Shown piece after piece: positions 23,575-51,142 of a DNA stretch of 64,000 nt. The notes under the pieces are model-generated. The model had not been told where the DNA came from and ran no database searches. It worked only from the letters and a program-made list of their open reading frames with translations. Position 1 is the first letter of the stretch. Every line of letters begins with the position of its first letter. Made by a program: the position numbers and the translations under genes. The DNA is from Paraglaciecola sp. L3A3 (lineage in GTDB: Bacteria > Pseudomonadota > Gammaproteobacteria > Enterobacterales > Alteromonadaceae): positions 620,001 to 684,000 of the forward strand of contig NZ_CP047023.1 in assembly GCF_009796765.1 (NCBI RefSeq). The letters run 5' to 3'.

Positions 23575-23704
23575 AGATTTTCATAGAGGTGCACTGTTTC
23601 TGTGGGTTGTTGGTAAATATTGAGTAAAGTGAAAAATGAAGAGGCTAATTTATGTATATTTAAGCTATTGAGCCTCAATGCTGGTGTTTTTGCAGGAATT
23701 TATC

Positions 23705-29543: not shown

Positions 29544-31217
29544 TTAAAGTGTGTAGCAATATGTTACTTTATTATACGAGCCTTTTAATACTTTAAGGTT
29601 ATTACATTTTTTAAGTTGTTCTGCGGTACGTTCTTGAAAAATAATATTTTCATCTTGAAGTCTTGCTCGAATAGAATAAAAAGGAGAGAAATTTATATAG
29701 AGTAAAGAATCATTAGTTTTCAATTCTCTGAGTTCTTTATTGATGTCGATAGTTGTCAAAGTTGTTTTTAGTGCCATTCCCGAAAAAATCACTAGCGAGT
29801 TGAGTAGCATTGTCATAATCAGCGAAAAGTAGATACCTTGACTAAACTTATTATTTAATTTACTTAATATAAATATCATAATTATTGGGAAAAGCCACAT
29901 TTGTGGGGTGTATCGCGCCCACCATGATTCTGGATGAATAAAAACGGAAAACATTAAAAAGAAAATTATTAATGTAAATATGAATTTTGAATAAACAAGT
30001 TTCTTTTGCATCGCTATATAGATTAATGAAATAACTGAAATAATAAATATTCCACTAAATAGCACCCCAAATCCAGATAACCTAGCATCATGTTTTATAG
30101 AGTTTGATACTTCGTCAAGACTATCAATTATAAACGGGAATTTTAAATTCATGCCCCCATTTAACGAGTTTGAAACTGAATGAAATAACGAGATAAAGTA
30201 ACGCTCAAAAGAATTGAAGGAGGCCAAAATACTAGGTGTGTTGTGGGTCATTATATCTACTGGTTGGGCACCGTACAAAGGGTAAAATGGATGGCCAAAA
30301 TCTAATAAGTTTTTTATATAAGTGTCGTATCCAAACAAACATATAGCTAAAACCAAGACTATAAATGAACGAATGCCGAAAATGAAAGACTGCTTAATCC
30401 CTTTTCTAGCTAGAATGTACGTAAGCCATCCTAAAATTATAACGCAATAATATGGGATACCTGTAAATTTAGTGTTGATTAACAGTACCGTAGAAAAGAA
30501 TAAAACAGTCCACCAGTAATTGTTGTTATTTACATTTATTTGAAAACAAGAAAATACAATAATTAACATTAATACATAGATGATCCCATCAACATAATAA
30601 GTAAATATTTGATTGATAAAAATAGGGTTTAAGCAGATTAAAAGTGAAGTTATTAGTGAAATTATTAATGTAGTATTCTTGATGGATAATAAGGTACTTA
30701 GAGAAAGAAGAAATAAAGCCATACAAAGAATTAACTGGTATGACTTACCTGCCTCAACTGAATTAAATACATGATAATGGGCTGCGCTATAGATCCATGT
30801 CCATTTAGGATAATGGTTAACCCATAAAGATGTAGGAACCTCTTGTGCAACATCATTATATACCGGATTCCATCCCTCTTTTATTTGTATTATTGCTTCC
30901 CTATGATAAGTTAATCCATCATAAGCTGTGCCATACACAGACTGAGATAAAAAAACACTGAGAAATATAATGCCAAAAAATATCCCTAAAATAATTACGA
31001 TATAATTTGGGGGAAAATATATTACTTTAGAAGTTTTGAATACAAAAAATGCGATTAATAGTAATGATGCAAATATTGAATATTCTATTAATGGAAGCTT
31101 AAACCAAAATCCAATTATCGAAAAAGAATAAGTAAAAAATACATAGGCTAAAAGTGAGATGCCTAAAATTTGGAGTAAATTACTTAATAAATGTTTATCA
31201 ATCGTCTTATTAAACAT
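29544..31217 (-). CDS. Multi-spanning GT-C-like membrane glycosyltransferase (probable)
   Basis: 557 aa, about 12-13 membrane helices and a short C-terminal soluble tail (residues 505-557). The first large extracytoplasmic loop carries AYDGLTYHREAIIQIKEGW, an acidic/His-containing loop at the place where GT39/ArnT-type GT-C enzymes have their catalytic acidic residue. I do not recognise a named family, so the function is inferred from topology and from the HAD-UbiA gene 18 bp downstream. If correct it would transfer the polyprenyl-phosphate-linked sugar to a periplasmic acceptor. Very AT-rich. Start ATG at 31217, AAGGA upstream. Confidence 0.6.
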   Translation of the reverse strand: MFNKTIDKHLLSNLLQILGISLLAYVFFTYSFSIIGFWFKLPLIEYSIFASLLLIAFFVFKTSKVIYFPPNYIVIILGIFFGIIFLSVFLSQSVYGTAYDGLTYHREAIIQIKEGWNPVYNDVAQEVPTSLWVNHYPKWTWIYSAAHYHVFNSVEAGKSYQLILCMALFLLSLSTLLSIKNTTLIISLITSLLICLNPIFINQIFTYYVDGIIYVLMLIIVFSCFQINVNNNNYWWTVLFFSTVLLINTKFTGIPYYCVIILGWLTYILARKGIKQSFIFGIRSFIVLVLAICLFGYDTYIKNLLDFGHPFYPLYGAQPVDIMTHNTPSILASFNSFERYFISLFHSVSNSLNGGMNLKFPFIIDSLDEVSNSIKHDARLSGFGVLFSGIFIISVISLIYIAMQKKLVYSKFIFTLIIFFLMFSVFIHPESWWARYTPQMWLFPIIMIFILSKLNNKFSQGIYFSLIMTMLLNSLVIFSGMALKTTLTTIDINKELRELKTNDSLLYINFSPFYSIRARLQDENIIFQERTAEQLKKCNNLKVLKGSYNKVTYCYTL

Positions 31218-36452: not shown

Positions 36453-39400
36453 ATGTTTAAGAACTCATTAATACCCATAGCCGTTGTGGCAGCCTTAACC
36501 GGGTGTGGATCCGACGACACTTCTAAGTTGGAAGGTAATAGTAACGGTGCCATCGAAATTGTGGGTAACGATTTTATAGCTGGGGCCACACTAACTACAA
36601 AATTAAGTGATCCAGACGGTATTGTAGATGAAACGGTTAGTTATTTATGGTCAACAGGTGCAACCGGCAATTCTTACACTATTACCGAAGCTGACGAAGA
36701 TTCAGTCATAACGGCTTCTGCTTTATATACTGACCAAGCTGGTTTCATGCAAGGGGTTAATGCCTCTACAACGGTTATACTCCCCACACTAAACGTAACT
36801 GCCAATATAATGAAAGGGCCAGTTAGCGGAGCAAATTGTGAACTTTTTGCGGTGGATGATAACGGGGCTGCAGTTACTCCTGCTCATGCTAGTGCAACGT
36901 CAGGCGCAGCAGGCGCAGTGGTATTTAGTGATGTGCATTTTAAGGGCACGGGTTTAGTGGCTTGTAACGGCGGAACCTATAGCGATGAGTCAACTGGTGA
37001 AACATTAGATGCTCCTGAATTACGAGCTGTTTTGAATTTAGTAAAAGGTGATTCTGAAACACCCGCTCCATCTTATGTAGTCTCGCCATTAACTGAAATG
37101 GCTGTGCAAGCCGCTGGTACAAATTTAAATAATTTTGCAACCGAAGCAGCAGCAATCAACCTAAGATTTGGTATACGCTTTGATATAACCGAAGTGGCGC
37201 CTACTGTAGTAGGTGTTGATGCGCTTGGGGCGGATGGTGCTGAAAATGCAGATCGATATGGTTCTGTGCTTGCTCTTATTTCGCAGCTAGATAATGACGA
37301 TACCACTAAAGATATAGCGACAGTTATCGCGGGTATCCGCGAAGACTTGGCGGATGGTACATTTTCAGATATTACATTAGATGCTTTGGAGTTGGCGCAA
37401 ACGAACCTGCAAACAACTTCTAATGTAGCTAATGATGTTAAAGAGTCTTTACTTGACACAATTGGTGCGGCCGCTGGCTATAACAATGAGCCAGTCACTG
37501 CCATTATAGAAGGCATGTTGACCGGTACAGTGAACAATACCGCCACCGATCCATTAACAGGTATGGTGACGGTTACCGATCCAAACTTTGAAGAAGACGC
37601 GATCATTATTCAAACTGATGTGGCCCTTGATTATGGTTCTTTCAGCATTACAGCTGACGGTAGTTGGTCATATACGGTAGACGTAACAAACGATACTGTA
37701 GCTAACCTTGAGTTAGGTAATTCGGTCAACGATTTAGTCACTATTACATCGATCGACGGCACTATAGCTGAAATTGCAATTCGTGTTGCAGCGCTTACCC
37801 AAGTGGTTAAAATTTCTGATTTAGGTGGCGATACTGGTGAAATTAAATTTGACGTAGCAGACTTACGTCAAGGTAAGTTAACTGCATCTTTCTCGAAAGA
37901 AGTTGCACTTGGTAGTGATGGCAACATCAAAGATGCTTATATTACCCTTTACGGTTCATCAGGTAGCTCATCTGAGTCATTGATTGATTTACGTATTCAA
38001 GGAAATCAAACTGATGGTAATGACAATCCCATTGCGCCAAGATTCTTTGTTCGAAATACTGATAGTAGCACTTACTCAGGTGACATGATCACTGCACCTT
38101 TCGTCGAAGGGCAATTCTATGATGTTGAAATTACTTGGGACTTAGATGCTACTGAACAAATAACCGTTAGTATTGATGGTGAAGTGATTGGTGGTGGAGC
38201 TTTCTCTACTGCTGCAGTAGTTGATTCTGATTTCGTAAACTTAGACCAGTGGTTTGTTGACGGTATTCAATCGATTCAATTCAGATTTGGTGATAACGAT
38301 AGAACGATTCCTTTTGGTTCTTTCTTTGTAGATAACATTGCAGTGTATTCAGATACTGCTGGCACGGTAATGGTATTTGAAGATGATTTTGAAAGTTATA
38401 CTGAAGGTGAAACCTTGGACGGAAGTACCAGCCTTTACAAAGAATCCGTGTATTCTGAGGTAGTTGTGTATGATGTGGGGGATGGCACGGAGCCGACTCC
38501 AGCTTCTATCCTTGATCTAACCGGAAGAATTAGCGGTGATGAAGCTACGTCAACTGGTGCCGTAAGTGTATTTGATCCTGATGATGGTGAAGCCTTTATT
38601 GTTGAGTCAGCTCTAATGGGTATGTACGGTGCTTTAGATATTTTTGAAGATGGGTCTTGGACATACACGTTAGATGCTAACAACCAAACTATTGCGGCAT
38701 TAGTCGTGGGTGAGAGTGAAATTGATACATTTACCATAGAGTCCTTTGATGGCACGACTGCAGAATTGGTGATTACAATTTCAGGTACTGTCGTTGTAAA
38801 TACAGGTGCAAATAATGTTGCCGTTATTCGAGATACTTTAGGAGAAACAGTTCAAGGCGAGTCAAATGATGGTGATACCGGTGAACTTAGATATACCTTA
38901 CCTGAAGCTCAACTAACCGGTAAGCTTACTGCATCTTTTAATAAAGCAGCAAATACTACTAATATTAACCCGCAAGATACCGACACTGATAACAAAGATG
39001 CCTACATTACTTTGTTCAACAGCCAGAATAGTACATCCAGTGGCCGTGCTATTGCTGACTTACGTATTAGAACAAGTAATTTTCAGTTACGTGATCAAGA
39101 TGACCTTGTAATTTCTAACGCATTTACTCCTGACACATGGCAAGATGTTGAAATAACGTGGGAAGCTGTCGATGCTGATACGCCGCCAACAATAACGGTT
39201 AGTATTGACGGTGTAGCAGTTACAACTGAAACGATTACATCTGGAGACGCGGCAATTGGTGGTGTTACTGCAATAGCATTTAGACTGTCTGATAATGATG
39301 CCGCTTTAGCTCCAGAGAGCACATTTAAAGTAGATGATATAGCTATCTATTCAGACACTGCAGGTACTGCTTTAGTGTTTGAAGATGATTTTGAAAGCTA

Positions 39401-40172
39401 CGCAGATGGTCACGATTTGGATCAAGACCCTTATGCTTCAGCTACTTCTGAAGCGGTAGTTGAAACCATTGCAGGTAATCAAGCGTCAGGACCTGGTGTG
39501 AGTGGTAATAAAATGGCAAAAATAACTGATACTTTAGGAGAAACAGTTCAAGGCGAATCAAATGATGGTGATACCGGTGAACTTAGATATACCTTACCTG
39601 AAGCTCAACTAACCGGTAAGCTTACAGCAGCTTTTAACAAAGCAGCAAATACTACTAACATTAACCCGCAAGATACCGACACTGATAACAAAGATGCCTA
39701 CATTACTTTGTTCAACAGTCAGAATAGTACATCCAGTGGTCGTGCTATTGCTGACTTACGTATTAGAACAAGTAATTTTCAGTTACGTGATCAAGATGAC
39801 CTTGTAATTTCTAACGCATTTACTCCTGACACATGGCAAGATGTTGAAATAACGTGGGAAGCTGTCGATGCTGATACGCCGCCAAAAATAACGGTTAGTA
39901 TTGACGGTGTAGCAGTTACAACTGAAACGATTACATCTGGAGACGCGGCAATTGGTGGTGTTACTGCAATAGCATTTAGACTGTCTGATAATGATGCCGC
40001 TTTAGCTCCAGAGAGCACATTTAAAGTAGATGATATAGCTATCTATTCAGACACTGCAGGTACTACTTTAGTGTTTGAAGATGATTTTGAAAGCTACGCA
40101 GATGGTCACGATTTGGATCAAGACCCTTATGCTTCAGCTACTTCTGAAGCAGTTGTGGCAGTTGAAGACTAG
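36453..40172 (+). CDS. Large modular surface lipoprotein with VCBS-like and repeated jelly-roll-like domains
   Basis: 1239 aa. Signal with lipobox LTGC (Cys18). An Ig-like segment (about 30-115) and a helical segment of unclear type (115-350) come first. Then a VCBS-like repeat (about 350-450) and a beta-rich module of about 190 residues (about 450-640) ending VFEDDFESYTEGE. A second VCBS-like repeat follows (about 690-780), then two copies of the module at 794-1000 and 1026-1232. Modules carry GELRYTLPEAQLTGKLTA, DVEITWEA and VDDIAIYSDTAG. They look like concanavalin-type carbohydrate-binding folds, which is an inference; no catalytic residues were recognised. Likely an outer-membrane glycan-binding protein next to PL7. 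AGGAG 8 nt before the ATG; terminator follows. Confidence 0.75.
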   Translation: MFKNSLIPIAVVAALTGCGSDDTSKLEGNSNGAIEIVGNDFIAGATLTTKLSDPDGIVDETVSYLWSTGATGNSYTITEADEDSVITASALYTDQAGFMQGVNASTTVILPTLNVTANIMKGPVSGANCELFAVDDNGAAVTPAHASATSGAAGAVVFSDVHFKGTGLVACNGGTYSDESTGETLDAPELRAVLNLVKGDSETPAPSYVVSPLTEMAVQAAGTNLNNFATEAAAINLRFGIRFDITEVAPTVVGVDALGADGAENADRYGSVLALISQLDNDDTTKDIATVIAGIREDLADGTFSDITLDALELAQTNLQTTSNVANDVKESLLDTIGAAAGYNNEPVTAIIEGMLTGTVNNTATDPLTGMVTVTDPNFEEDAIIIQTDVALDYGSFSITADGSWSYTVDVTNDTVANLELGNSVNDLVTITSIDGTIAEIAIRVAALTQVVKISDLGGDTGEIKFDVADLRQGKLTASFSKEVALGSDGNIKDAYITLYGSSGSSSESLIDLRIQGNQTDGNDNPIAPRFFVRNTDSSTYSGDMITAPFVEGQFYDVEITWDLDATEQITVSIDGEVIGGGAFSTAAVVDSDFVNLDQWFVDGIQSIQFRFGDNDRTIPFGSFFVDNIAVYSDTAGTVMVFEDDFESYTEGETLDGSTSLYKESVYSEVVVYDVGDGTEPTPASILDLTGRISGDEATSTGAVSVFDPDDGEAFIVESALMGMYGALDIFEDGSWTYTLDANNQTIAALVVGESEIDTFTIESFDGTTAELVITISGTVVVNTGANNVAVIRDTLGETVQGESNDGDTGELRYTLPEAQLTGKLTASFNKAANTTNINPQDTDTDNKDAYITLFNSQNSTSSGRAIADLRIRTSNFQLRDQDDLVISNAFTPDTWQDVEITWEAVDADTPPTITVSIDGVAVTTETITSGDAAIGGVTAIAFRLSDNDAALAPESTFKVDDIAIYSDTAGTALVFEDDFESYADGHDLDQDPYASATSEAVVETIAGNQASGPGVSGNKMAKITDTLGETVQGESNDGDTGELRYTLPEAQLTGKLTAAFNKAANTTNINPQDTDTDNKDAYITLFNSQNSTSSGRAIADLRIRTSNFQLRDQDDLVISNAFTPDTWQDVEITWEAVDADTPPKITVSIDGVAVTTETITSGDAAIGGVTAIAFRLSDNDAALAPESTFKVDDIAIYSDTAGTTLVFEDDFESYADGHDLDQDPYASATSEAVVAVED
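38832..39453 (+). repeat. Tandem module, copy A (622 bp)
   Basis: From GATACTTTAGGAGAAACAG to the end of GCTTCAGCTACTTCTGAAGC. About ten base differences from copy B; most are silent. Confidence 0.9.
39528..40149 (+). repeat. Tandem module, copy B (622 bp)
   Basis: Offset exactly 696 bp (232 codons) from copy A and in frame. A 74-bp unique linker separates them. Differences seen include AAA for ACA in PPKITV versus PPTITV and TTTAAC for TTTAAT; the two are about 98% identical. Confidence 0.9.
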
Positions 40173-40232
40173 TATTGACAGATAGATAGGTCACGCATTA
40201 GTTGAGTGACACATTAGTGAAAATGTGTGCGA

Positions 40233-40269
40233 AAGCCCTTAAGGTGTAATGTTTTAAGGGCTTTTTTTA
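40233..40269 (+). terminator. Rho-independent terminator after the large lipoprotein gene
   Basis: AAGCCCTTAA, 10-nt loop, TTAAGGGCTT then a T-run (TTTTTT). Ten-bp perfect stem, 60 bp past the stop. It separates this gene from the FAD oxidoreductase operon. Confidence 0.88.
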
Positions 40270-40364: not shown

Positions 40365-42293
40365 ATGAAAAGACGCCAATTCTTTAAGTTAGGTACCGCA
40401 GGTTTAGTTACAGCAGGCTTTTCTCCAACGGCTTTGTCTGCGAATAATTGCCAGTCAACAACTGGCTTAGGCGAGCGAGAGTTAGATGATTGGTATCATT
40501 TAGGTACAGGCAAAAAAGGCGTACCTAAGCGTTACGAAGAACATGAATATGACTTAGTAGTATTAGGTGGTGGAGCGGCAGGCATCTGTGCTGCTGTTTC
40601 GGCTGCTAGACTCGGTTCGAAAGTGGCACTTGTGCAAGACAGACCTGTATTAGGAGGGAATGCCTCAAGTGAAATGCGCGTACATTTGAATGGGGTAAAT
40701 CGTTTAAAAACCGGCTTAGCAGAACGTGAAACTGGCATTATTGAAGAAATGTTATTACACAATCGATTTGAAAACCCTCAAGAGTCTTTTCCTGTTTGGG
40801 ATCATGTGTTGTATGACTTTGTGATGCGTGAACCTAATATAGAATTAATGCTGAATACCCAAGGCATAGATGTCCAAATGCGGGGAGATCAAATTGCATC
40901 GGTAAAGTGTTGGCAATTAACCACAGAAAAAGAGCTAGTTTTAAAAGCTAAGTTATTTATTGATTGCTCGGGTGATGGATTAGTTGCCGCTAAAGCAGGA
41001 GCTGAGTATCGCACAGGGCGAGAAGGTAAAAGTGAGTTTAATGAAACCTTTGCACCAGATCAGCCTGACGGCTGGCAAATGGGGGCATCTTTACTTATGT
41101 CGGCTAAAGATATGGGTAAACCTATTCCTTATACTGCGCCATCATGGGCGATTAAATTTGATGCTGAAAATGCCCATAAAAGACGTAAGTTCAATGCTTA
41201 CCATGAAGGTATATGGTGGATTGAAGTAGGCAGTGATGATGACATTATTGCCGACCAAGAAATAAATCGGCATAAATTAATGGGCTATTTACATGGTGTT
41301 TGGGATTACATTAAAAACTCCGGTAAATTTCCAGAATCAGCAAACTTAGCTTTAGATTGGGTTGGTTCGTTACCATCTAGGCGCGAGTCACGAAGATTTA
41401 TTGGTGACTACATTCACTCAGAAAAAGATTTAACAGGGCTAAAACATTTTGCAGACGCAGTAGCATTTGGTGGTTGGGGCATTGATGAACATAACCCGGG
41501 TGGTATGGAAAACATTCATTTGGCGCCGACTATATTTCATGCTCATTTTGATGAAGTGTATCAAGTGCCTTTTCGCTCTTTATATTCTAAGAATATCCCT
41601 AATCTATTATTTGCTGGGCGAAATGTCAGTCAAACCCATATTGCTTTAGCGTCTTCAAGGATCATGGCGACATGTGCCTTAATGGGACAAGCAGTGGGGA
41701 CTGCCGGGCATTTATGTGTGCAAAAAAATGTTCTGCCAAGAAAAATATATCAGTCTCATATTAATGAGTTGCAAGAACAGCTAATGCGAGACGATGTATT
41801 TATTCCTAAGCGTGCTGCAAAAGATCCCGCTGATTTAGCCAAAAAAGCAGCCGCTTTAGTGGCTTCATCGACTCAGTCAGGAGATGTGAATTTACTGACT
41901 AATGGTTGGTCAAGAGATATAGACGGAAAAGTCCACCATTGGCAATCCAAAGGGTTACCTGCTGATGTGCAACTTGAATGGTTAGAGCCAGTGAGTCTTT
42001 CACAATTAGAAATTAAGTGCGACACCAATGTGAAGCGCAATATTATGATGAGAAAAGACTCAAAAGATGACGAGCATTACGCTAACAGCGTGCCAGCAGA
42101 AATGCTTAAATCATTAAGTTTGGAAGCGCGAATAAATGGCCGCTGGGTGAAAGTAGGGCAAATTACCGATAATCGTACTCGCTTGATCAAGTTTAAATTT
42201 GCCAGTGTCACTACCAGTGCAATTAAAATTAAGGTGGTAGAAACTTACGGCAAACCTACAGCAAAATTATTTGAAATTAGGGCTTATGCCTAA
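40365..42293 (+). CDS. Tat-exported FAD-dependent oxidoreductase with C-terminal discoidin-like domain
   Basis: 642 aa. Twin-arginine signal (MKRRQFFKLGTAGLVTAGF), so it is folded with cofactor and then exported. The Rossmann motif is VVLGGGAAGICAAVSAARLG, followed by the FAD_oxidored-type VLGGNASSEMRVHLNG and LFAGRNVSQTHIALASSRI. The last ~100 residues (from NLLTNGWSRDIDGKVHHWQS) are a beta-rich galactose-binding-like domain. Such proteins are frequent next to sulfatases in Planctomycetes and Lentisphaerae; the reaction is unknown. ATG at 40365 places the RR motif at the N terminus; the open frame runs 46 codons further. The stop overlaps the next start (TAATG). Confidence 0.83.
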   Translation: MKRRQFFKLGTAGLVTAGFSPTALSANNCQSTTGLGERELDDWYHLGTGKKGVPKRYEEHEYDLVVLGGGAAGICAAVSAARLGSKVALVQDRPVLGGNASSEMRVHLNGVNRLKTGLAERETGIIEEMLLHNRFENPQESFPVWDHVLYDFVMREPNIELMLNTQGIDVQMRGDQIASVKCWQLTTEKELVLKAKLFIDCSGDGLVAAKAGAEYRTGREGKSEFNETFAPDQPDGWQMGASLLMSAKDMGKPIPYTAPSWAIKFDAENAHKRRKFNAYHEGIWWIEVGSDDDIIADQEINRHKLMGYLHGVWDYIKNSGKFPESANLALDWVGSLPSRRESRRFIGDYIHSEKDLTGLKHFADAVAFGGWGIDEHNPGGMENIHLAPTIFHAHFDEVYQVPFRSLYSKNIPNLLFAGRNVSQTHIALASSRIMATCALMGQAVGTAGHLCVQKNVLPRKIYQSHINELQEQLMRDDVFIPKRAAKDPADLAKKAAALVASSTQSGDVNLLTNGWSRDIDGKVHHWQSKGLPADVQLEWLEPVSLSQLEIKCDTNVKRNIMMRKDSKDDEHYANSVPAEMLKSLSLEARINGRWVKVGQITDNRTRLIKFKFASVTTSAIKIKVVETYGKPTAKLFEIRAYA

Positions 42294-43141
42294 TGAAGAG
42301 CTTGCTTGTTATTGTTATTGTTTGTGCCTTTATGATGAATTGCCTGCTTTTTTTAGTGGCATGCCAGAATGCAGATTCTGATACGGTAAAACATTCGGTT
42401 AGCTTTAATCACAAAGGTAATAAAAGTAAAAAACCAATACAAGCTAGTTTATATGAAGGCAAAAATAGCCAAGGAGAAACAGAATTCTATATGGATGTAA
42501 ATTCTGTCTTTTGTGGTGAAAATGTCTGTAAGTTAGACAAGGTTCGCATTTTTTGGGATGAGTTGGGCGTTTATCAAAAATTTGAATTAGCAGATAATAT
42601 CCGTTTAGAAAAAGGCAACGCAGAAGACTTTGAACAGCAAGATTATATAAAGCTTGATGGTATTTTACGTAATCCCTCTTCTGGATTAGCCGAACTTTAT
42701 CCCGCAGAATTGGTGAATCAGAATCGAGGGGGCAATGTAGTCGATGCCTTGTCGGGCGCTACTGTGAGCATTCATAATGAGGATACAGTCAAAGGGGCTA
42801 TTTGGACTTGTTACACTTTATGGCATTATGCTAATGGTGAGCTAAGCCAAGTTATCCGTGATATATCGGGCAAGCAACATTCCTTAACAGAGCTAACCGC
42901 TGCTTTGTTAACCCATACTGACTTAACTTACCAGATATTCGCTTTAGAGCAATTAACCAGAATAGGCTTTGTTGACGATCAAACCCGTGCTGTGATTACC
43001 GGTGGTGAGTTGCTGCATCAAGTGGCTTTGTATCCTAACATTATGAATTATATTGAAGCCTTACCTAAACATCAGTATCAGGAGAGTCTGTGCTTAGTTT
43101 TTTGCATCAAGAGAATACCGCATTGGCACTTGCTACCTTAG
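42293..43141 (+). CDS. Lipoprotein with FMN-binding (flavinylation) motif, possibly 5' part of a frameshifted gene
   Basis: 282 aa. Lipobox FLVAC with Cys24. No firm family, but VVDALSGATVSI (residues 149-160) matches the motif D-x-x-(S/T)-G-A-(S/T) to which ApbE attaches FMN in NqrC and RnfG; Thr157 would be the acceptor. Cys74 and Cys79 may form a disulfide. The second half is helical. The last 17 residues lie in a frame that stops at 43141, while an overlapping frame from 43090 continues the helical pattern for 112 more residues; see the next entry. It is coupled to the FAD oxidoreductase, so a periplasmic FAD/FMN redox pair is a reasonable hypothesis. Confidence 0.6.
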   Translation: MKSLLVIVIVCAFMMNCLLFLVACQNADSDTVKHSVSFNHKGNKSKKPIQASLYEGKNSQGETEFYMDVNSVFCGENVCKLDKVRIFWDELGVYQKFELADNIRLEKGNAEDFEQQDYIKLDGILRNPSSGLAELYPAELVNQNRGGNVVDALSGATVSIHNEDTVKGAIWTCYTLWHYANGELSQVIRDISGKQHSLTELTAALLTHTDLTYQIFALEQLTRIGFVDDQTRAVITGGELLHQVALYPNIMNYIEALPKHQYQESLCLVFCIKRIPHWHLLP

Positions 43142-43428
43142 AATCAATAGACAAATCTAAACTAGAACCATCTGCTGAGTTGAGCCTAGCGTTAGCTAAT
43201 TCTCTTGCTCATGCTGATGATTTTCAACTATCAAGTTCTATTTTGACCATGCTCGCCAATTATTCGCTGTTACCTGAGGAAGTCTTAATAACACTCACTT
43301 CAATTCTAAAAGACCAAAGTTTTCTCAAAGCACGAGGAGTATATTGGTTGTTAAGTGATTATCCATTACCAAACAATGAACAGGATGAACTGAAGAGATT
43401 TTATCAAACCAATTGGGAGCGACTTTAA
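43090..43428 (+). CDS. Downstream helical-repeat ORF, coupled or frameshifted from the preceding gene
   Basis: 112 aa starting at GTG (43090) with GGAG 5 nt upstream. Overlaps the preceding gene by 52 bp in a -1 frame. Contains a helical repeat-like sequence (TALALATLESIDKSKLEPSAELSLALANSLAH...) that reads as a smooth continuation of the helical tail before the overlap. The overlap includes T6 (43098-43103). Three explanations: an independent coupled gene, a -1 frameshift on the T-run giving one ~375-aa protein, or a sequencing or natural frameshift. No function assigned. Confidence 0.5.
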   Translation: MLSFLHQENTALALATLESIDKSKLEPSAELSLALANSLAHADDFQLSSSILTMLANYSLLPEEVLITLTSILKDQSFLKARGVYWLLSDYPLPNNEQDELKRFYQTNWERL

Positions 43429-43452
43429 ATGTGTTCTACAAGGATTCAATGA

Positions 43453-44013
43453 GTGAATAGCTCACAGCTTGAATTGATATTGTTAGCCCAGCAGGGAGAC
43501 AAACAGGCTTATTGTAAGTTAGTGCGTATTAATCAATCTAGGGTGCGTGCTTTTATTGCCTCTCGTAGTCGTTATCAACCAGATGTTGATGATATTGCTC
43601 AAGAGGCTTTTATCTTAGCTTTTACTAAAATAAATCAACTGCAAAACACCGATCTCTTTAATTCTTGGTTATGTGGTATTGCCCTAAATTTATTACGTAA
43701 TCACGAACGAAAATTTGATCCTTGCAAGCAAGGTTGTGACAACCAGTTAGATGAATTAATCACTGCAGGTATTGAAGAACTTACTCTGTTTGATTCGTCA
43801 GTCGATTCGATTTCGGCCCTTAAAGTTTGCCAAGCAGAACTAGATAAAAAATGGCAACAAGTATTGGATTTGTATTACTTTAAAAATCAATCCATTCAAC
43901 AACTAAGCAAACTGACTGGAGATAAACACTCCACTATCACTATGCGTTTATACCGTATTCGCGACGCTCTTAAAAAGTGTGTTACCCAACGGTTAGGAGC
44001 CAATAATGAATAA
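43453..44013 (+). CDS. ECF RNA polymerase sigma factor
   Basis: 186 aa. Region 2 (residues 22-88, e.g. DDIAQEAFILAFTKINQL and the core-binding FNSWLCGIALNLLRNHERK) and region 4 (about 115-185, with WQQVLDLYYFKNQSIQQLSKLTGD...TITMRLYRIRDALKK) are both intact. No region 3, so ECF type. The GTG start at 43453 is favoured, as ATG at 43449 meets a stop. Its stop overlaps the start of the FecR/LamG gene by 8 bp; this pairing is the usual sigma/anti-sigma arrangement. It probably drives this cluster in response to a glycan. Confidence 0.86.
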   Translation: MNSSQLELILLAQQGDKQAYCKLVRINQSRVRAFIASRSRYQPDVDDIAQEAFILAFTKINQLQNTDLFNSWLCGIALNLLRNHERKFDPCKQGCDNQLDELITAGIEELTLFDSSVDSISALKVCQAELDKKWQQVLDLYYFKNQSIQQLSKLTGDKHSTITMRLYRIRDALKKCVTQRLGANNE

Positions 44014-45547
44014 ACAACATCAGGCTTTGATCGCAGCCTATTTGGCTGGTGAAAAGTTAGAAAATGAATTGATTGAAGCATGTAAAACTTCGCCTCAACT
44101 TAGGCAACAATTGGCTGAAGATGTCGCTTTTGAACGTATTCTAAAACATGTCTTGTTGGCTAAGTCTGATGAGCAGTTTATAGATGATTTCGAAAGCAAT
44201 TTTATGACCAATAAACCCGTAACAGCTAAGGTGGTGTATTCGAGTTTCAATCGAAAATTCTTCTCATTGTGTGCGTCTTTTGCTGCAATGTGTTTGATTT
44301 TTATTTTCTATTTAAATTCCACCGAAAACCTCGGAATAATAGTTAATACCGCTGGGGCGAGTTATCAACAAAACGAACTGAACGACGGAGAGTTTATTAA
44401 TAAAGGTCGCTTTAGTTTATCTAAAGGTTATGCCGAATTAGAACTAAAAAACGGGGTGATTTTAGTGTTAGAAGCACCACTAGAGCTAAATATAAACACT
44501 GTCGATCAAGTTGAATTATTGGAAGGTCGTTTAGTGGCTAAAGTGCCCCAACAAGCCATTGGTTTTGAGGTATTAACGCCTAGTTCAGAAATTGTCGATT
44601 TAGGCACTGAATTTGGCGTAGCTGTTGATAAGTCAGGTGATTCACAAGTTCATGTTTTAGAAGGTGAAATAAAAGTTCGTGCTAACAAAAGTTTGTCTTA
44701 TGAGCATCTGATTGAAAATCAGGGGCGAATATTTAGTGGTGATCAACAAGTGCGTATCATAAAAAGCCAGCCACATCTTTTTATGCGGGTATTACCTGGA
44801 CATTCGATTGACAATCCCGCCTATTTACATTGGTCGTTTGATAATAAACAAGGCAACAAATTTGTTTGCCAAGGCCCAGGTATTCAAGGGCGTTGTTATT
44901 ATGCTGAATATAAAACCTTAGATAAACGGGATATAAATCAACGTTTGATTGAAGGTAAATATGGTCAAGGTATGTCTTTTGACGGTATCAATAATTGGTT
45001 AGAAACTGAGTTTAAGGGTATTGAAGGCAATAAACCAAGAACGGTTGCTATGTGGGTGAAAGTACCGAAAACCTTTTCGGTAAATAATGGCTATGGCATC
45101 GTAAGTTGGGGTTTACCAGAAGTGTTGTCTGCGTGGCAAATTTCACCTAATCCATCAGAAGAATTAGGCCCGTTGGGGCGGATTAGGATTGGTACCAACC
45201 ATGGTGAAATTATTGGTACTACAGATTTACGAGATGATGAGTGGCACCACATAGCTGTGGTTTTGTTTGGTGGAGAACATGCCAACCTCGCTACTCATGT
45301 ACTGATTTACGTGGATGGTGTATTAGAAAAAACCTCAAGAAAATCTATTGCTAAAGTGTTTACTGAATTAAAGCATCAAGAATCACAACCCCTGAGAATG
45401 GGTCGTAACATCGCTTATAAAAACTTAAATAATTCTGAGCAAAAACACCGATTTTTTAAAGGAGCTGTTGACGAAGTGTATATTTTTGACTCGGCCTTAC
45501 AGCGTCAACAAGTTTTGAAGCTGATGACTAGCAATAAATTTAATTAA
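44006..45547 (+). CDS. FecR-type anti-sigma factor with C-terminal LamG lectin domain
   Basis: 513 aa. Cytoplasmic helical domain (1-80) to hold the sigma factor, one membrane helix (about 85-103, FFSLCASFAAMCLIFIFYL), periplasmic FecR domain (about 108-240; VLTPSSEIVDLGTEFGVAV, VHVLEGEIKV), then a LamG/concanavalin domain (about 265-510; KPRTVAMWVKVP, DDEWHHIAVVLFGG, FKGAVDEVYIFDSALQ). The lectin domain is the likely glycan sensor, analogous in logic to RsgI of Clostridium. It overlaps the sigma gene and has AGGAG 7 nt before ATG. FecR plus LamG with ECF sigma and sulfatase is a Planctomycetes-like theme. Confidence 0.84.
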   Translation: MNKQHQALIAAYLAGEKLENELIEACKTSPQLRQQLAEDVAFERILKHVLLAKSDEQFIDDFESNFMTNKPVTAKVVYSSFNRKFFSLCASFAAMCLIFIFYLNSTENLGIIVNTAGASYQQNELNDGEFINKGRFSLSKGYAELELKNGVILVLEAPLELNINTVDQVELLEGRLVAKVPQQAIGFEVLTPSSEIVDLGTEFGVAVDKSGDSQVHVLEGEIKVRANKSLSYEHLIENQGRIFSGDQQVRIIKSQPHLFMRVLPGHSIDNPAYLHWSFDNKQGNKFVCQGPGIQGRCYYAEYKTLDKRDINQRLIEGKYGQGMSFDGINNWLETEFKGIEGNKPRTVAMWVKVPKTFSVNNGYGIVSWGLPEVLSAWQISPNPSEELGPLGRIRIGTNHGEIIGTTDLRDDEWHHIAVVLFGGEHANLATHVLIYVDGVLEKTSRKSIAKVFTELKHQESQPLRMGRNIAYKNLNNSEQKHRFFKGAVDEVYIFDSALQRQQVLKLMTSNKFN

Positions 45548-45571
45548 ATAATAAAAATAGTGAGAAATAGT

Positions 45572-47245
45572 ATGTTAAGAATCTGTATTCACACCTTGGT
45601 GATAGGTTGGATAGCGTGTTTGTTTAGCCTTGTTTCAGCACAAGAATTATCCACCAAAAATCAGCCACCTAATGTGATTTTTATTGCCATTGATGACTTA
45701 CGACCTATGTTAGGCGTTTACGGCGTTTACGGCGTTTACGGCGATAACTTAGCGAAAACCCCCAATATCGATAAGTTGGCAGCACAAGGCGTAACCTTCA
45801 ATAGAGCCTATGCCCAATTTCCAATTTGTGGGCCATCTAGAGCTAGTGTCATGACAGGATTACGGCCTAATACTGTTGGCGTGACTCATAATTATATTAA
45901 GTTTAGAGACAAGTTTAGTAACTTAGTTACATTGCCACAATATTTTGCCCAACAAGGTTACAACGCCGCTTATGTAGGAAAAATATTTCATCACGGTGAT
46001 AAAGACGATGATAAGTCATGGAATTGGCAGGTGAATAATAAACAGTTAGCTGATGGCACTCAACGTCCAGACACATATGCGATAGCAAAAAACAGACAGC
46101 TACAACTAAGTAACCGTAAAAAAATGGTCGCCAAGTATGGAGAGCAAGCTAAATACGGTTTAGGTCGAGGGCCTGCCTCTGAAGGAGCAAATGTGGCAGA
46201 TAATCAATATATCGATGGGTTCAATGCTGAATTAGCTATTGAAACCATCACCAATATGCGTACCAGCTCGGATAAGCCGATCTTTTTTGGTTTTGGTTTG
46301 AATAAACCCCATTTGCCTTGGATTGCCCCTAAAAAATATTGGGATATGTACCAGTCAAGTGACATTCAACAAGCACAAAATAAAATACCGCCAGTGGCAG
46401 GTGCCAGCATGGGCATTCACGCATCTTTCGAATTGCGGACTTTTTCTGATGTACCAAATACAGGACCTATTTCTGCTGATTTAGCCGATAACCTTAAGCA
46501 TGCTTATTTGGCTTGCATTAGCTATGTGGATGCACAGATAGGTAAGTTAATTGAGTCACTAGAGAAACAACAAATGTTAGACAACACCATTTTTGTTTTG
46601 TGGAGTGATCACGGTTACCACCTAGGGGAAATGGGTATTTGGGGGAAAGCTAGCAATTATGAAATAGCCACCCGTGTCCCGCTAATTTTTTCAACCCCAG
46701 ACACGCGTAAAAAAGCTCAAGAAGGTCAGTCAAATGCCTTAGTGGAATTGGTGGATATATATCCCACTTTAGTTGAGCTGGCTGGGTTACCCACCCCTCA
46801 AACATTAGAAGGTAAAAGTATGGTTAAATTGCTTTCGCAGCCTAATTTTCCTTGGAAAACTGCGGCCTTTAGCCAATTTCCTTCACCAGCCTTAAGAGAG
46901 TGGGGGGCTTATCCACTAAGATCTGGGATGCGTGAAACATATTTTGGTGAACTGATTGTGCAAGTTGAAGATAAAATTAAAACTCAATTTTCAGAGCTAT
47001 GGGATCGAGAGTTATTTGAGCACCACTTAATGGGTTACTCGATGCGCACTGACCAGTATCGATTTATTGCTTGGTTGGATTCTCGAGATATCGCTAAGAA
47101 GCCCCTATATATGGAATTATATGATCATCAAAACGATTCGCTAGAAACTAACAATATTGCAGATCACAAACCTGAATTAATTGAAAAATTGTTAGCTGAA
47201 CTTAAGGTGAGTTTAAAGTTACAAAATAATGCCGCAGCTATTTAG
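45572..47245 (+). CDS. Sulfatase, iduronate-2-sulfatase-like (S1 family)
   Basis: 557 aa with a signal peptide ending about SLVSAQE. Metal Asp pair in IFIAIDDLRP, active-site motif ICGPSRASVMTG with Cys86 (CxPSR), YVGKIFHHGDKDD, VLWSDHGYHLGEMG and a C-terminal subdomain. IDDLRPxLGxYGD and GKIFHHG are those of the iduronate-2-sulfatase branch, though substrates in this branch vary and alginate or fucan-type sulfate is possible. The VYG tripeptide is repeated three times where the family has one (residues 49-57). ATG at 45572 (GAGA at proper spacing); the frame opens at GTG 45560. Last gene of the sigma-factor cluster. Confidence 0.88.
   Translation: MLRICIHTLVIGWIACLFSLVSAQELSTKNQPPNVIFIAIDDLRPMLGVYGVYGVYGDNLAKTPNIDKLAAQGVTFNRAYAQFPICGPSRASVMTGLRPNTVGVTHNYIKFRDKFSNLVTLPQYFAQQGYNAAYVGKIFHHGDKDDDKSWNWQVNNKQLADGTQRPDTYAIAKNRQLQLSNRKKMVAKYGEQAKYGLGRGPASEGANVADNQYIDGFNAELAIETITNMRTSSDKPIFFGFGLNKPHLPWIAPKKYWDMYQSSDIQQAQNKIPPVAGASMGIHASFELRTFSDVPNTGPISADLADNLKHAYLACISYVDAQIGKLIESLEKQQMLDNTIFVLWSDHGYHLGEMGIWGKASNYEIATRVPLIFSTPDTRKKAQEGQSNALVELVDIYPTLVELAGLPTPQTLEGKSMVKLLSQPNFPWKTAAFSQFPSPALREWGAYPLRSGMRETYFGELIVQVEDKIKTQFSELWDRELFEHHLMGYSMRTDQYRFIAWLDSRDIAKKPLYMELYDHQNDSLETNNIADHKPELIEKLLAELKVSLKLQNNAAAI
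45713..45739 (+). repeat. Nonanucleotide tandem repeat GGCGTTTAC x3 inside the sulfatase gene
   Basis: Three exact copies, then a partial GGCG. In frame, encoding Gly-Val-Tyr three times, seven residues after the metal-binding Asp pair. Confidence 0.92.
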
Positions 47246-47266
47246 TTGCGACATTGTTTTTGACAA

Positions 47267-48625
47267 TTATTTTTTCGTGGGACGTTCCCAACCACCAATA
47301 TTACGTTGTTTGGCCCGTGCTATGGCTAATTCACCGTCTTCAATGGATTTTGTGATGATTGAGCCTGCTCCCACAGTGGCATTTTTACCTATTGTGGTCG
47401 GTGCAACTAATGAGCTATTTGAGCCAATAAATGCGCCGTCACCTATAGTGGTTTTGAATTTATTCACACCATCATAGTTACAGGTGATAGTTCCCGCACC
47501 TATGTTGACTCCTTCGCCCACAGTTGTATCGCCTAGGTAAGTAAAATGGTTGGCTTTAGAGCCTTTGCCTAAAATGGTTTTTTTCATTTCTACAAAGTTA
47601 CCCACTTTCGCATTTTGATGCATCACCGCCCCTGGACGTAAACGAGCAAATGGGCCTACATTACAATTTTCACCTACTTGTGCTTGTTCTATAATTGAGT
47701 TCGCTTCTATATTGGCTCCTTGGGCAATATCACAATCAATCAATATACAATTCGGGCCAATATTCACGTTTGAGCCTATGTTGACTTTACCTTTGATCAC
47801 TACATTGATATCAATATTGATATCTTGGCCAACAGTTAATTCACCGCGTAAGTCAAATCTGTGGGGATCACTAAAACTCACACCTTGAGCCATAATGGCC
47901 TGAGCTTGTTCGAATTGAAATGCACGCTCAATATTGGCCAGTTGCATACGATTATTGATACCTTCAACTTCGATAGCTGAACTAGGATGTGAAGCTTTAA
48001 TCACTTTACCTTCGGCAGCAGCCATTGCGATAACATCGGTTAAATAAAACTCCCCTTGAGCATTATTGCTGTTTAAATTAGCCAACCAACGTTTTAGATC
48101 AGAACCGGCCATGATCATCATGCCAGTATTGATTTCAGTGATTTGTCTTTGCTCAGCTGTGGCGTCTTTGTGTTCTATTATAGCTGTGACTTGATCGCCT
48201 TCACGGATAATTCGACCCATGCCTGTGGGATCATCTAGATGTACCGTTAATAATGCTAAATCTGCATTTTGTTTAATAGCAATCAATTGCTCTAGCGTAG
48301 TGGGTTTAATCAGTGGTGCATCACCTACCAAAATAAGCACATCTTCGTCATCAGAGATATGTGGTACGGCTTGTTGTACCGCGTGGCCTGTGCCGAGTTG
48401 TTCAGCCTGTAAACACCAATTTAATGTATTGTGTTGCAGGGCACTTTGTAATTGCTCTGCGCCATGGCCATAAATAAGGTTTATCGAGCGTGCGCCTATT
48501 GTATTTACTGTGTCTATGATGCGTTGCACCATAGGTTTGCCACCAATTGGATGTAATACCTTAGGAAGAGATGATTTCATTCTCGTTCCTTTTCCTGCCG
48601 CTAAAACCACTACTGAAAATGCCAT
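47267..48625 (-). CDS. glmU: Bifunctional N-acetylglucosamine-1-phosphate uridyltransferase / glucosamine-1-phosphate acetyltransferase
   Basis: 452 aa. The N-terminal pyrophosphorylase domain has [18 protein letters not shown]; the C-terminal left-handed beta-helix acetyltransferase has hexapeptide repeats (from [23 protein letters not shown] to [20 protein letters not shown]). It makes UDP-GlcNAc for the wall and LPS. It ends 21 bp from the convergent sulfatase gene. In E. coli glmU and glmS are adjacent; here about 12.7 kb of accessory genes separate it from the deoR-glmS operon, all on the same strand. Confidence 0.95.
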
Positions 48626-48796: not shown

Positions 48797-51142
48797 TTAT
48801 TTACCGTAGCGTTTTTGGTACATAGTTGAAGTGACGTCTTTTACTGCCTGAGTAAGTTCAGGATAGGGGATGTCAGCTACCGTAACAAAACCTATGTTGG
48901 CATTTTCACCATCGAAAGAGCGACCACTAATAGGTTCATCTACGTATTGAAACCAATGAGCACCCACCATATAAGATTTGTTTAAAACACTTTCCATGTA
49001 TTTTTTATACATAGTGGCTCGCTCAGTTTGATTGGCAGCGTGCACGATCCCCGGATTAAACATGCCAGAGTCGGTGGCTGTGCCTATATGGAATTCGCCA
49101 ATAGCGACAGGCAAGTCTACTTTTTCTAAGAACTTCCAGAAATCCTCTTGTACGCCTTCTTCATAAATATTAAAACTTAGTACGTCTGAATATTTTAGCG
49201 AAGCTTTAATAATTTCGTCAGGCATGCCCCAGTTAGCCATACGAGCCCCCATATATAAATGATGAGGTAAAACTTGTTCTAAGGTGTTGTGCACAACTGT
49301 GAAATATTGTTCACCTAACATTTCTAACATTTTTGATAAGTCTTGGACTAGAACATCCGAGTGTTGAGTAAAAGTGATGCCATCTTCTAATTCTGACCAA
49401 TTTGTAAGGTCTAATTGCCAGCTTTGATTAATCTGTTCTATAGAAGAATACTTGTTTCTTAAATGTTTGGTGAAGGCCGCTTTGGCTGGGCTGTCAGTAA
49501 TAGACTGAGATAAAGCGTCAAGAATAACGCCATATCGTGCTTCTACTGAGCCTTCTCGTTCACCCCAACTTTTTTCATTATCAATAAATATGCCTACGCA
49601 CCAAGGTGAACTTTTTACATTTTCGGCTATTTCGCTAATAGTCGCTTGGGCTCGTTCACTGAATACAGGGTCGTAGGGATCAGGCATTAATCCCCAGTGG
49701 TTAGTTTTACCAGATAAGGTTTTGAAATTACCTATGATCCAACCATTGGCAAAATAAGGGATTTTATCTTCATGTTCATAAAAAGCAGGATCAACCCAGT
49801 TACCAAAAGAGGTGAAGCCCCAGTCTCGCATACGGTCTAAAGTGACTTGATGCCATTGTTTTACATAAGACTCAGGCTCTGTTTCACCATATCGACGCTC
49901 TAGGTTAGCGCGGTAAAAACTATAAGTTTCACCATGGGCAACAGGTCCTTTATGTGTTGAACGTCTGTAACTATAGTGATCGGCTAAAGGATCATCGTAG
50001 CTAGGCAACCATTCAAACATATTATTACGAACGCTAGAGGTGACAAAAGCTGTTTGTTTGATGCTATCGGCAATTTTGATGATACCCATAGAATCTTCAG
50101 GGGTAGTTTCATCATCTCTGAACACTCGAATCGCAGGATCTTTATAATCGATACCAGTAATAGTTGTTAAATTAGCCATACGCACGTTAGCAGGGCCATG
50201 AGAAAAGTATAGGTAGCCATCAGGATCAACCATCCACCATTTGCCATCTACTTTTTCGGTGCGAAAATATCCAGTGGCCTCTAGTTTAGGACCTGCAGTA
50301 TAGCCACCAAACTTAGAGCGATTAGGCATACCAGTTGATTTGGCCAGCTCGGCTAATTCTTTTGTTGCTGCTTCTTTGAGCTGTTGTTCTGTTTTAATTT
50401 TTAGATCTGTATCGAGTTTGGCATTTTGACCAAATTTATCAATTAACCCTACTGACCAGTCGTTTTCAGTTGCTGGATTTTGGCGAAGTCGAATATTGTC
50501 GATATCTACTTTTTTATTTTCTAACACACCTATAACTGAAAACGTTAAAGACTGTATAGTCTCTAAATTAACTTGTGCTGCTCGCCAAGAGCGCCATACC
50601 ATCAAATCATCTTTGGTTTTCCAAGGTGGCGCGTCACCCCATAAACCAGTTTCAGTTTCTGCTTCAACACCTTTTAATGGAAAATAAACAGTACCTGAAT
50701 AATGGGTTGGTAAACTAATAGAGCGTTTTTGTAGTTCGCCTTCAGGGTTTACTAAAGATAAATATAAATGTACTGCGACATCGCCAGTGTTGTTGACGTC
50801 GAAAGCTAGGTTGTAATCTTGGTAGCTTTTTAAATCCCAAGGGGTTTCGGGTTGAATAGTTAATGAAGAAATATTTTCATTTGAGGAAAATTCGACAGCT
50901 AGGCTTTTGCCATTTTTGTTATTTGCTAACGAAAAATTTGCAGTATTTGATTGCAGCCAATCTTGCTGGTGTTTGCTATCAAAATCGACTAATGAATAAA
51001 TGACCTTTTCGTTGCTAAATGGATCAACATTTTGTGCCGTGACTGGGTGCGTATTGTCTGTTTTATTGCAACTCATTAATACAGAAATGGCACATAAAGT
51101 TAGGCACTTCACGCTTGATAAATTTCCAAAAGAGATCTTCAT
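48797..51142 (-). CDS. Beta-agarase, glycoside hydrolase family 50, lipoprotein
   Basis: 781 aa. Lipobox VLMSC (Cys25). N-terminal carbohydrate-binding-like beta domain (about 45-235) and a (beta/alpha)8 GH50 catalytic domain (about 290-775). Family sequences seen: GGYTAGPKLEATGYFRTEKVDGKWW, then IFIDNEKSWGERE with the acid/base Glu, and VAIGEFHIGTATDSGMFNPG with the nucleophile Glu, plus GAHWFQYVDEP. GH50 enzymes are usually exo-acting and release neoagarobiose from neoagaro-oligosaccharides. Together with the GH16 lipoprotein it would complete agar breakdown at the cell surface or periplasm. Start ATG with AAGGAA 9 nt upstream. Confidence 0.92.
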   Translation of the reverse strand: MKISFGNLSSVKCLTLCAISVLMSCNKTDNTHPVTAQNVDPFSNEKVIYSLVDFDSKHQQDWLQSNTANFSLANNKNGKSLAVEFSSNENISSLTIQPETPWDLKSYQDYNLAFDVNNTGDVAVHLYLSLVNPEGELQKRSISLPTHYSGTVYFPLKGVEAETETGLWGDAPPWKTKDDLMVWRSWRAAQVNLETIQSLTFSVIGVLENKKVDIDNIRLRQNPATENDWSVGLIDKFGQNAKLDTDLKIKTEQQLKEAATKELAELAKSTGMPNRSKFGGYTAGPKLEATGYFRTEKVDGKWWMVDPDGYLYFSHGPANVRMANLTTITGIDYKDPAIRVFRDDETTPEDSMGIIKIADSIKQTAFVTSSVRNNMFEWLPSYDDPLADHYSYRRSTHKGPVAHGETYSFYRANLERRYGETEPESYVKQWHQVTLDRMRDWGFTSFGNWVDPAFYEHEDKIPYFANGWIIGNFKTLSGKTNHWGLMPDPYDPVFSERAQATISEIAENVKSSPWCVGIFIDNEKSWGEREGSVEARYGVILDALSQSITDSPAKAAFTKHLRNKYSSIEQINQSWQLDLTNWSELEDGITFTQHSDVLVQDLSKMLEMLGEQYFTVVHNTLEQVLPHHLYMGARMANWGMPDEIIKASLKYSDVLSFNIYEEGVQEDFWKFLEKVDLPVAIGEFHIGTATDSGMFNPGIVHAANQTERATMYKKYMESVLNKSYMVGAHWFQYVDEPISGRSFDGENANIGFVTVADIPYPELTQAVKDVTSTMYQKRYGK

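Follow-up and report, generated by a model that had tools for sequence, protein, structure and literature searches.

Flavinylated extracytoplasmic oxidoreductases pair an exported enzyme holding flavin adenine dinucleotide (FAD) with a partner that carries covalent flavin mononucleotide (FMN) (PMC8238504), and the carrageenan pathways in the parts of the literature consulted consist of hydrolases, sulfatases and cytoplasmic dehydrogenases (PMC5698469, PMC6262041). Here we describe a gene unit of Paraglaciecola sp. L3A3 in which an exported-type flavin enzyme and a carrier-like lipoprotein stand beside a sulfatase, an arrangement suggesting that the breakdown of seaweed sugars includes a redox step not yet described. 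The unit occupies positions 40365-47245 (+ strand) of a 64,000-nucleotide stretch of contig NZ_CP047023.1 (positions 620,001 to 684,000), hereafter the window. The open reading frame (ORF) listing gives, in a row, an FAD-dependent oxidoreductase (the FAD protein), the lipoprotein (LIPO), an extracytoplasmic function (ECF) sigma factor, a FecR-LamG protein and the sulfatase. The host genome is a single contig of 5.3 Mb, and the strain shares its genus with strain T6c.

We propose, with a probability of roughly 0.6, that the FAD protein and LIPO form an extracytoplasmic two-flavin couple acting in the degradation of sulfated galactans, carrageenans being the most frequent case. Flavinylated extracytoplasmic electron transfer as such is known; what is new is the carrier family, LIPO, and its enzyme partner, PF12831. 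The features of the unit and its borders are as follows (Tat, twin-arginine translocation).

40231..40265, + strand: terminator-like hairpin of 16 pairs, between the upstream VCBS-type gene and the unit
40365..42293, + strand: FAD protein, PF12831 FAD-dependent oxidoreductase, 642 aa, with a Tat-type start
40371-40388, 40566-40583 and 40653-40673, + strand: FAD protein motifs RRQFFK, GGGAAG and GGNASSE, respectively
42293..43141, + strand: N-terminal ORF of LIPO, 282 aa, with an RnfG/NqrC-like domain and the first part of an alpha-solenoid
42353-42364, + strand: lipobox-like LVAC of LIPO
42743..42763, + strand: DALSGAT, an ApbE flavinylation motif (D-x-x-[S/T]-G-A-[S/T]), LIPO residues 151-157
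43090..43428, + strand: C-terminal continuation of LIPO in a different frame, remainder of the alpha-solenoid
43453..44013, + strand: ECF-type sigma factor, nearest NCBIfam family TIGR02989 (under its cut-off)
44006..45547, + strand: FecR-type putative anti-sigma factor; a single hydrophobic segment spans residues 85-103, and LamG (Laminin_G_3) forms the C-terminal domain
45560..47245, + strand: S1-type sulfatase, with CGPSR at 45827-45841
47233..47250, + strand: terminator-like hairpin closing the unit, followed by a convergent gene at 47267-48625

The FAD protein and LIPO are a conserved pair

Scanning a collection of 84,980 species with a single peptide pattern gave 18 LIPO loci, a number that therefore undercounts the family. 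An FAD ortholog, 58-79% identical and often overlapping, lies directly 5′ of LIPO in 17/17 loci where the contig reaches. Within the 18 genomes, which were chosen because they bear LIPO, we counted 29 sites with a close FAD ortholog (E up to 1e-150) and 21 with a close LIPO; by their coordinates, 20 of these 21 LIPOs adjoin a close FAD ortholog, and the other one lies at a contig end. A fragment belonging to a Dyadobacter jejuensis locus (L017) and a weak match in an 849-residue frame (E 1.8e-6) were left out of the LIPO count. Three of four diverged LIPOs, all from Dyadobacter, adjoin PF12831 proteins 23-46% identical to the window FAD protein. The fourth, from Draconibacterium (L070, 6041-9136), is without the strict flavinylation motif, and its neighbour encodes a GH141-type domain; the stretch fetched around it yielded no recognisable PF12831 gene. 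Together, a PF12831 gene adjoins 23 of the 24 assessable LIPOs in these genomes.

The conserved core is thus the FAD protein with LIPO, not the five-gene set. The sigma factor and FecR-LamG genes accompany the pair, besides the window, in only 2/18 retrieved loci (L003 and L006; tblastn), so the five-gene set was rejected as a unit of selection, contrary to its expected co-occurrence across genomes in the earlier note on this DNA. That note had also coupled an exported redox step to desulfation of a glycan that the LamG domain would sense; here the exported-type pair, with its flavinylation motif, proved conserved and recurrent near sulfatases, but not as part of a conserved set of five. The pair is sparsely distributed: a relatives search of 60 genomes, L3A3 included, found the close FAD ortholog and LIPO in the same two (L3A3 and G005, of the same genus), and LIPO occurred in 1/369 genomes of a class-wide sample, L3A3 itself.

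ApbE is present in 18/18 LIPO genomes vs. 7/14 control genomes, with three copies in Paraglaciecola sp. L3A3, and one Dyadobacter locus reads SusC, SusD, LIPO, PF12831, ApbE and TauE in order.

Nine of the 29 close FAD orthologs have no adjoining LIPO, as would be expected were LIPO an auxiliary carrier. The FAD flavin might then be used transiently to cleave or epimerise a sugar, which would be oxidised, rearranged or subjected to elimination, and re-reduced, while LIPO would reset enzyme stranded in a wrong redox state; NAD-dependent hydrolases, which cleave glycosides by redox assistance, offer a precedent. The near-obligate adjacency of LIPO to PF12831 proteins, distant ones included, suggests a regular electron partner instead, and makes such transient use quite improbable. 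By our judgement, electron transfer between the FAD protein and LIPO is likely. In Maribacter (L012, 787-10939), two S1_7-like sulfatase-FAD units lie in tandem, and only the second is followed by LIPO (motif DALAGAT).

LIPO is a candidate flavinylated carrier

A protein search returned 33 LIPO sequences, the window's own included, and a profile search extended these to 51 relatives of 356-430 residues; named sources are Paraglaciecola, Colwellia, Catenovulum, Alteromonas, Neiella and Bacteroidota. The ApbE motif, defined as D-x-x-[S/T]-G-A-[S/T] (PMC12052999), occurs in its strict form in 44/51 relatives, the window LIPO reading DALSGAT. The exceptions are EAVSGAT, DAVSSAT, DALAGAT, DAMSGET (twice) and DAVSRAS (twice), and all 51 sequences end the motif in S or T. 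Among 343 other ORFs of the LIPO loci (a few T6c ORFs being counted twice), the motif occurs once. Both cysteines of a CGExxC motif and an LEK motif are invariant across the 52-row LIPO alignment. A lipobox-like pattern appears in 19/52 sequences, part of these matches looking spurious, so lipid anchoring is not universal in the family.

Full-length LIPO models drew repeat-protein matches in fold searches, and the N-terminal domain was therefore predicted alone. Its best 10 structural matches are all RnfG/NqrC FMN-binding proteins, with modest Z, placing the predicted domain in the RnfG/NqrC fold; the motif loop is modelled with low confidence, and the protein beyond this domain is predicted to be an alpha-solenoid. 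Comparison of hidden Markov models with 30 RnfG/NqrC-type sequences is suggestive only, the probability being 30% for the 45 columns that surround the motif and 19% for the full-length profile; its register puts the LIPO motif at the RnfG/NqrC motif position. ETPGLG, a pocket motif of NqrC/RnfG (PMC4348036), does not occur in the aligned part of the 51 relatives, where the invariant LEK precedes the helix instead. No Pfam family matched either window piece of LIPO, even at E 10, nor LIPO from the four diverged relatives at E 0.001, and no precomputed Pfam domain, PF04205 included, is present on any LIPO relative listed. Against PDB sequences, the LIPO profile matched helical-repeat proteins and amyloid-precursor helices.

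Could LIPO instead be an unflavinylated scaffold that binds glycan or enzyme, its solenoid joining the FAD protein to the sulfatase and its motif being a structural loop? The missing Pfam match, the modest structural Z and the repeat-scaffold nature of the C-terminal part would fit, as would the seven deviations from the motif, five of which fall at the G-A core (SGET twice, SRAS twice and SSAT once). Against this, the motif is placed as in RnfG/NqrC by both the alignment register and the fold, ApbE adjoins in Dyadobacter, and a low-confidence motif loop is what a cofactor site predicted empty may show. We regard a purely structural LIPO as unlikely, and keep to a putative flavinylated carrier.

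In this strain the LIPO gene is broken. The ORF at 42293-43141 corresponds to about residues 1-260 of intact relatives, its last residues being out of frame, and residues 259 onward of those relatives match the frame of the ORF at 43090-43428. The earlier note's count of 5-6 genes reflects this split: the unit has five genes, with LIPO counted as two ORFs. A similar state is seen in the Dyadobacter jejuensis locus L017 (8062-10825 onward), where the FAD gene has an in-frame TAG and LIPO is split between frames near the window's break in the alignment. Both cases would fit a unit in decay, with LIPO reduced to a pseudogene in L3A3 and function retained by the sulfatase and its regulators alone. 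However, the frames of the FAD, sigma, FecR and sulfatase genes are open, the two LIPO pieces retain 69% and 53% identity to the relative P0002, and the frame break may be a sequencing or assembly error, or recoding, rather than a mutation. Decay in this genome is a serious possibility, although we lean against it, and it is compatible with every family-level reading given here.

The FAD protein and the direction of electron flow

The FAD protein matches PF12831 over the full profile (293.1 bits vs. a cut-off of 27; positions 1-416 of 416). PF00890 also scores above its cut-off (25.1 vs. 20.4 bits), yet over residues 63-100 only (profile positions 1-38 of 414), leaving its catalytic part unmatched. 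Among the best 60 PDB rows, sequence matches are N-terminal and reach residue 174 at most (MnmG/GidA rows), the fumarate reductase rows likewise covering the N-terminal region only. RRxF[FIL] lies within the first 60 residues in 116/120 of the FAD matches listed, the window's own included. PF12831 is a large family, with 7,969 of 7,999 scored candidates matching the window FAD protein at E 1e-30; a plasmid search added 14 records with more distant relatives, one at >60% identity. A C-terminal carbohydrate-binding sandwich, suspected by eye, was discarded, as Pfam found none in the window protein; in one FAD relative, DUF7402 matches below threshold (E 0.01).

The two flavins could also work in reverse, with respiratory electrons passing through the LIPO FMN to an FAD protein whose acceptor would be an unsaturated sugar, a keto sugar or some other periplasmic compound. 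Known FAD- and FMN-binding enzymes of similar layout are reductases, for example flavinylated fumarate and urocanate reductases (PMC8238504). Some databases label FAD relatives "fumarate reductase", and flavocytochrome c fumarate reductases top the PDB rows of the profile, with the match confined to the nucleotide-binding region at the N-terminus. This likeness stops short of the substrate-binding part, however, and the genes sit with hydrolases and sulfatases, in loci of a kind where we know of no reducible substrate that arises. The host genera of the pair are seaweed-associated. A reductive role thus appears rather unlikely, and we judge oxidation the probable direction.

Sulfatases and carrageenan loci

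A sulfatase lies within two genes on the same strand in 23/30 close-FAD loci (29 from the 18 genomes, plus T6c). In 12/30 of these loci the nearby sulfatase is closely related to the window's (at least 45% over 400 residues). In L003, L006 and the window, the corresponding sulfatase comes four genes downstream, within one run. S1 sulfatases bear the signature C-x-P-x-R, and the window protein has both the Sulfatase domain and CGPSR. Over 514 aa it shares 60.5% identity with the T6c sulfatase that gene counting puts at Patl_0891, and its best PDB match is 6hhm_A, "Arylsulfatase". Patl_0891 is given in a SulfAtlas table as an S1_7 endo-4S-kappa-carrageenan sulfatase (PMC5066984), whereas the S1_7 enzymes studied in a later paper acted on sulfated anhydrogalactose (PMC10958521), so published S1_7 activities differ.

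The LIPO homolog of T6c is Patl_0893, whose frame is open, as is that of the P. aquimarina LIPO. Counting genes from it assigns the FAD gene to Patl_0892 and the sulfatase to Patl_0891, a count that is consistent because Patl_0887 falls on a TonB receptor and Patl_0895 on a sulfatase. The T6c order is a TonB-receptor-sized gene (opposite strand), two sulfatases, another gene, a sulfatase, FAD, LIPO, GntR, a sulfatase, and then putative dauABCD and a transporter, these last identities being taken from sequence starts and order. dauABCD is treated as part of the T6c carrageenan locus Patl_0879-0901 (Gobet 2018, PMC6262041). The earlier note knew of no such gammaproteobacterial system in the literature. 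This must be qualified, as a published locus contains homologs of FAD, LIPO and the sulfatase, but the available part of its published treatment does not discuss FAD or LIPO.

The pair is also found with a lambda-carrageenase on contig AFPK01000044 of Ochrovirga pacifica S85 (L011). From the contig number, we infer that this is the drawn S85 locus AFPK_440002-440015; a lambda-carrageenan-specific polysaccharide utilization locus of S85 is named in the same work (Gobet 2018, PMC6262041). The categories "fumarate reductase/succinate dehydrogenase" and "unknown function" in the legend of a carrageenan-locus figure (Ficko-Blean 2017, PMC5698469) may be the FAD and LIPO pair. Loci from Wenyingzhuangia, Ochrovirga and Flavicella sediminum carry lambda-carrageenase, GH110 and GH42-like genes, and several FAD genes without LIPO sit with GH127, GH16 and sulfatases. 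A sulfated-galactan sugar is, by our judgement, a fairly likely substrate.

The L3A3 unit is not part of a recognisable carrageenan locus: no carrageenan-type gene was found in the subset of window genes scanned. The unit lies at 0.66 Mb of the genome, and dauA-like (42%), dauB-like (37%), S1_19-like (67-69%) and TonB-receptor-like genes at ~4.40 Mb, with a GH127 gene (58%) at 4.22 Mb. A T6c S1_19-type sulfatase query gave 125 matching stretches in the L3A3 genome (some genes twice), a large sulfatase repertoire.

Regulators and evolutionary history

Sigma70_r2 and FecR (PF04773) identify an ECF sigma/FecR pair of the FecI/FecR signalling type, and no TonB-dependent receptor is found among the genes of the unit. 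GntR-type regulators occur near the pair in T6c and Microbulbifer. The best NCBIfam family of the sigma factor is TIGR02989 (Rhodopirellula/Verrucomicrobium; E 2.1e-31), at 109 bits, below the cut-off of 124.55. The likeness to Planctomycetes/Lentisphaerae put forward earlier was probed through this sigma factor, whose match stays under the family's cut-off.

FAD and LIPO trees were built from LIPO-bearing genomes and T6c only, and are unrooted. In the FAD tree, the six gammaproteobacterial sequences group together (100/100), and three Bacteroidota rows stand beside them with weaker support (94/87); the six gammaproteobacterial LIPOs likewise form one clade (100/98). The simplest reading would be a single transfer between phyla, in either direction. 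LIPO seems to evolve several times faster than the FAD protein, the median end branch being 0.99 vs. 0.21 in trees with differing rows.

Borders and neighbours of the unit

Pfam bore out the gene families first named from the letters: PF12831 (E 5.9e-87), Sigma70_r2, FecR with Laminin_G_3, and Sulfatase (E 1.6e-52). The tight junctions noted then, TAATG at 42293 and an 8-bp overlap at 44006-44013, were both found, as was the terminator ahead of the unit, the 16-pair hairpin at 40231-40265. The scanned region holds 11 terminator-like sites against a shuffled mean of 5.8, some of them thus being chance, and shows no excess of sigma-70-like promoter sites (18 vs. a shuffled mean of 22.0).

The next-but-one gene 3′ of the unit is agarase-like (Agarase_CBM by Pfam, 48797-51142), and an alginate lyase (PF08787, 34981-35910) lies on the other side of the neighbourhood. 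The gene at 36453-40172 encodes a surface-type protein of 1239 aa with a VCBS match and long near-identical repeats toward its C-terminus. Farther off, 23678-25942 encodes a single 754-aa protein joining a sulfatase to a C-terminal YHYH domain (PF14240), and 29544-31217 a 557-aa protein with no Pfam match at E 0.001, adjoining a UbiA-type prenyltransferase.

Proposed mechanism and comparison with known systems

In the proposed pathway, the FAD protein would fold with FAD and be exported by the Tat route, for which the signal is present. LIPO would be exported and, where a lipobox is present as in L3A3, lipid-anchored; ApbE would then place FMN on the last Thr of DxxSGAT in the RnfG/NqrC-like domain, as the motif, predicted fold and ApbE linkage suggest. 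Carrageenases and the neighbouring sulfatase would release periplasmic oligosaccharides, on which the FAD enzyme may oxidise a hydroxyl of a galactose or anhydrogalactose unit, with electrons passing to the LIPO FMN and on to the respiratory chain. The alpha-solenoid may dock the FAD enzyme or the next carrier, and in L3A3 the unit's own ECF sigma/FecR-LamG pair probably switches it on. The step cannot be essential for carrageenan use, since Pseudoalteromonas is reported to degrade lambda-carrageenan by hydrolases and sulfatases (PMC12549532). More tentatively, and at somewhat less than even odds, the pair may represent a new class of glycan dehydrogenase, in which a Tat-exported PF12831 enzyme oxidises periplasmic sulfated galactan oligosaccharides and a covalently flavinylated domain of RnfG/NqrC fold, borne by an alpha-solenoid lipoprotein, takes up the electrons.

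In the parts of the open-licence literature consulted, no link was found between flavinylation or PF12831 and carrageenan or polysaccharide loci, and the word "polysaccharide" is absent from the main texts of two flavinylation surveys; a laminarin study mentions, in passing, that Maribacter forsetii has an FAD-dependent oxidoreductase close to a SusC/D pair. If the proposal is true, carrageenan pathways would include a periplasmic flavin step that has so far gone unnoticed. The pair would then couple seaweed-polysaccharide degradation directly to respiration, perhaps as one form of a general PF12831-LIPO-ApbE module serving many glycans. LIPO, if flavinylated, would be a further ApbE-substrate family, invisible to Pfam-based flavinylation surveys, and would supply an electron partner to PF12831, a large family scarcely named in open-licence literature, bringing its chemistry within reach of tests. 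The pair is small, and cultured strains hold relatives with an open LIPO frame.

LIPO is like the PF04205 ApbE substrates (NqrC, RnfG and fumarate reductase-associated domains; PMC8238504) in its motif, predicted extracytoplasmic location, predicted fold, FAD oxidoreductase partner and, in one case, adjoining ApbE gene. It differs from them in lacking a Pfam match and ETPGLG, in its C-terminal alpha-solenoid, and in its partner, which is PF12831 rather than PF00890. Like DUF2271 and DUF3570, ApbE substrates without the FMN-binding domain (PMC8238504), it is recognised by motif and ApbE neighbourhood; those families are shown experimentally, whereas LIPO is known from sequence and its predicted fold is RnfG/NqrC-like. 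The regulators share with FecI/FecR systems an ECF sigma factor and a membrane-spanning FecR-type protein, but the unit has no TonB-dependent receptor, its FecR ends in LamG, and its sigma factor is nearer TIGR02989.

Periplasmic glucoside 3-dehydrogenases combine an FAD subunit with a cytochrome c subunit. The pair would follow the same logic, an exported FAD sugar dehydrogenase with a separate electron carrier, although the FAD family differs and the carrier here would be a covalent flavin. Among described carrageenan loci (PMC5698469, PMC6262041), FAD and LIPO homologs lie beside sulfatases inside the T6c locus and the lambda-carrageenase locus of Ochrovirga S85, whereas the L3A3 unit stands alone near an agarase-type gene, with the strain's carrageenan-like genes elsewhere. 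The FAD and LIPO pair fits the general plan of flavinylated extracytoplasmic oxidoreductases; what sets it apart is the PF12831 enzyme and the context of glycan degradation.

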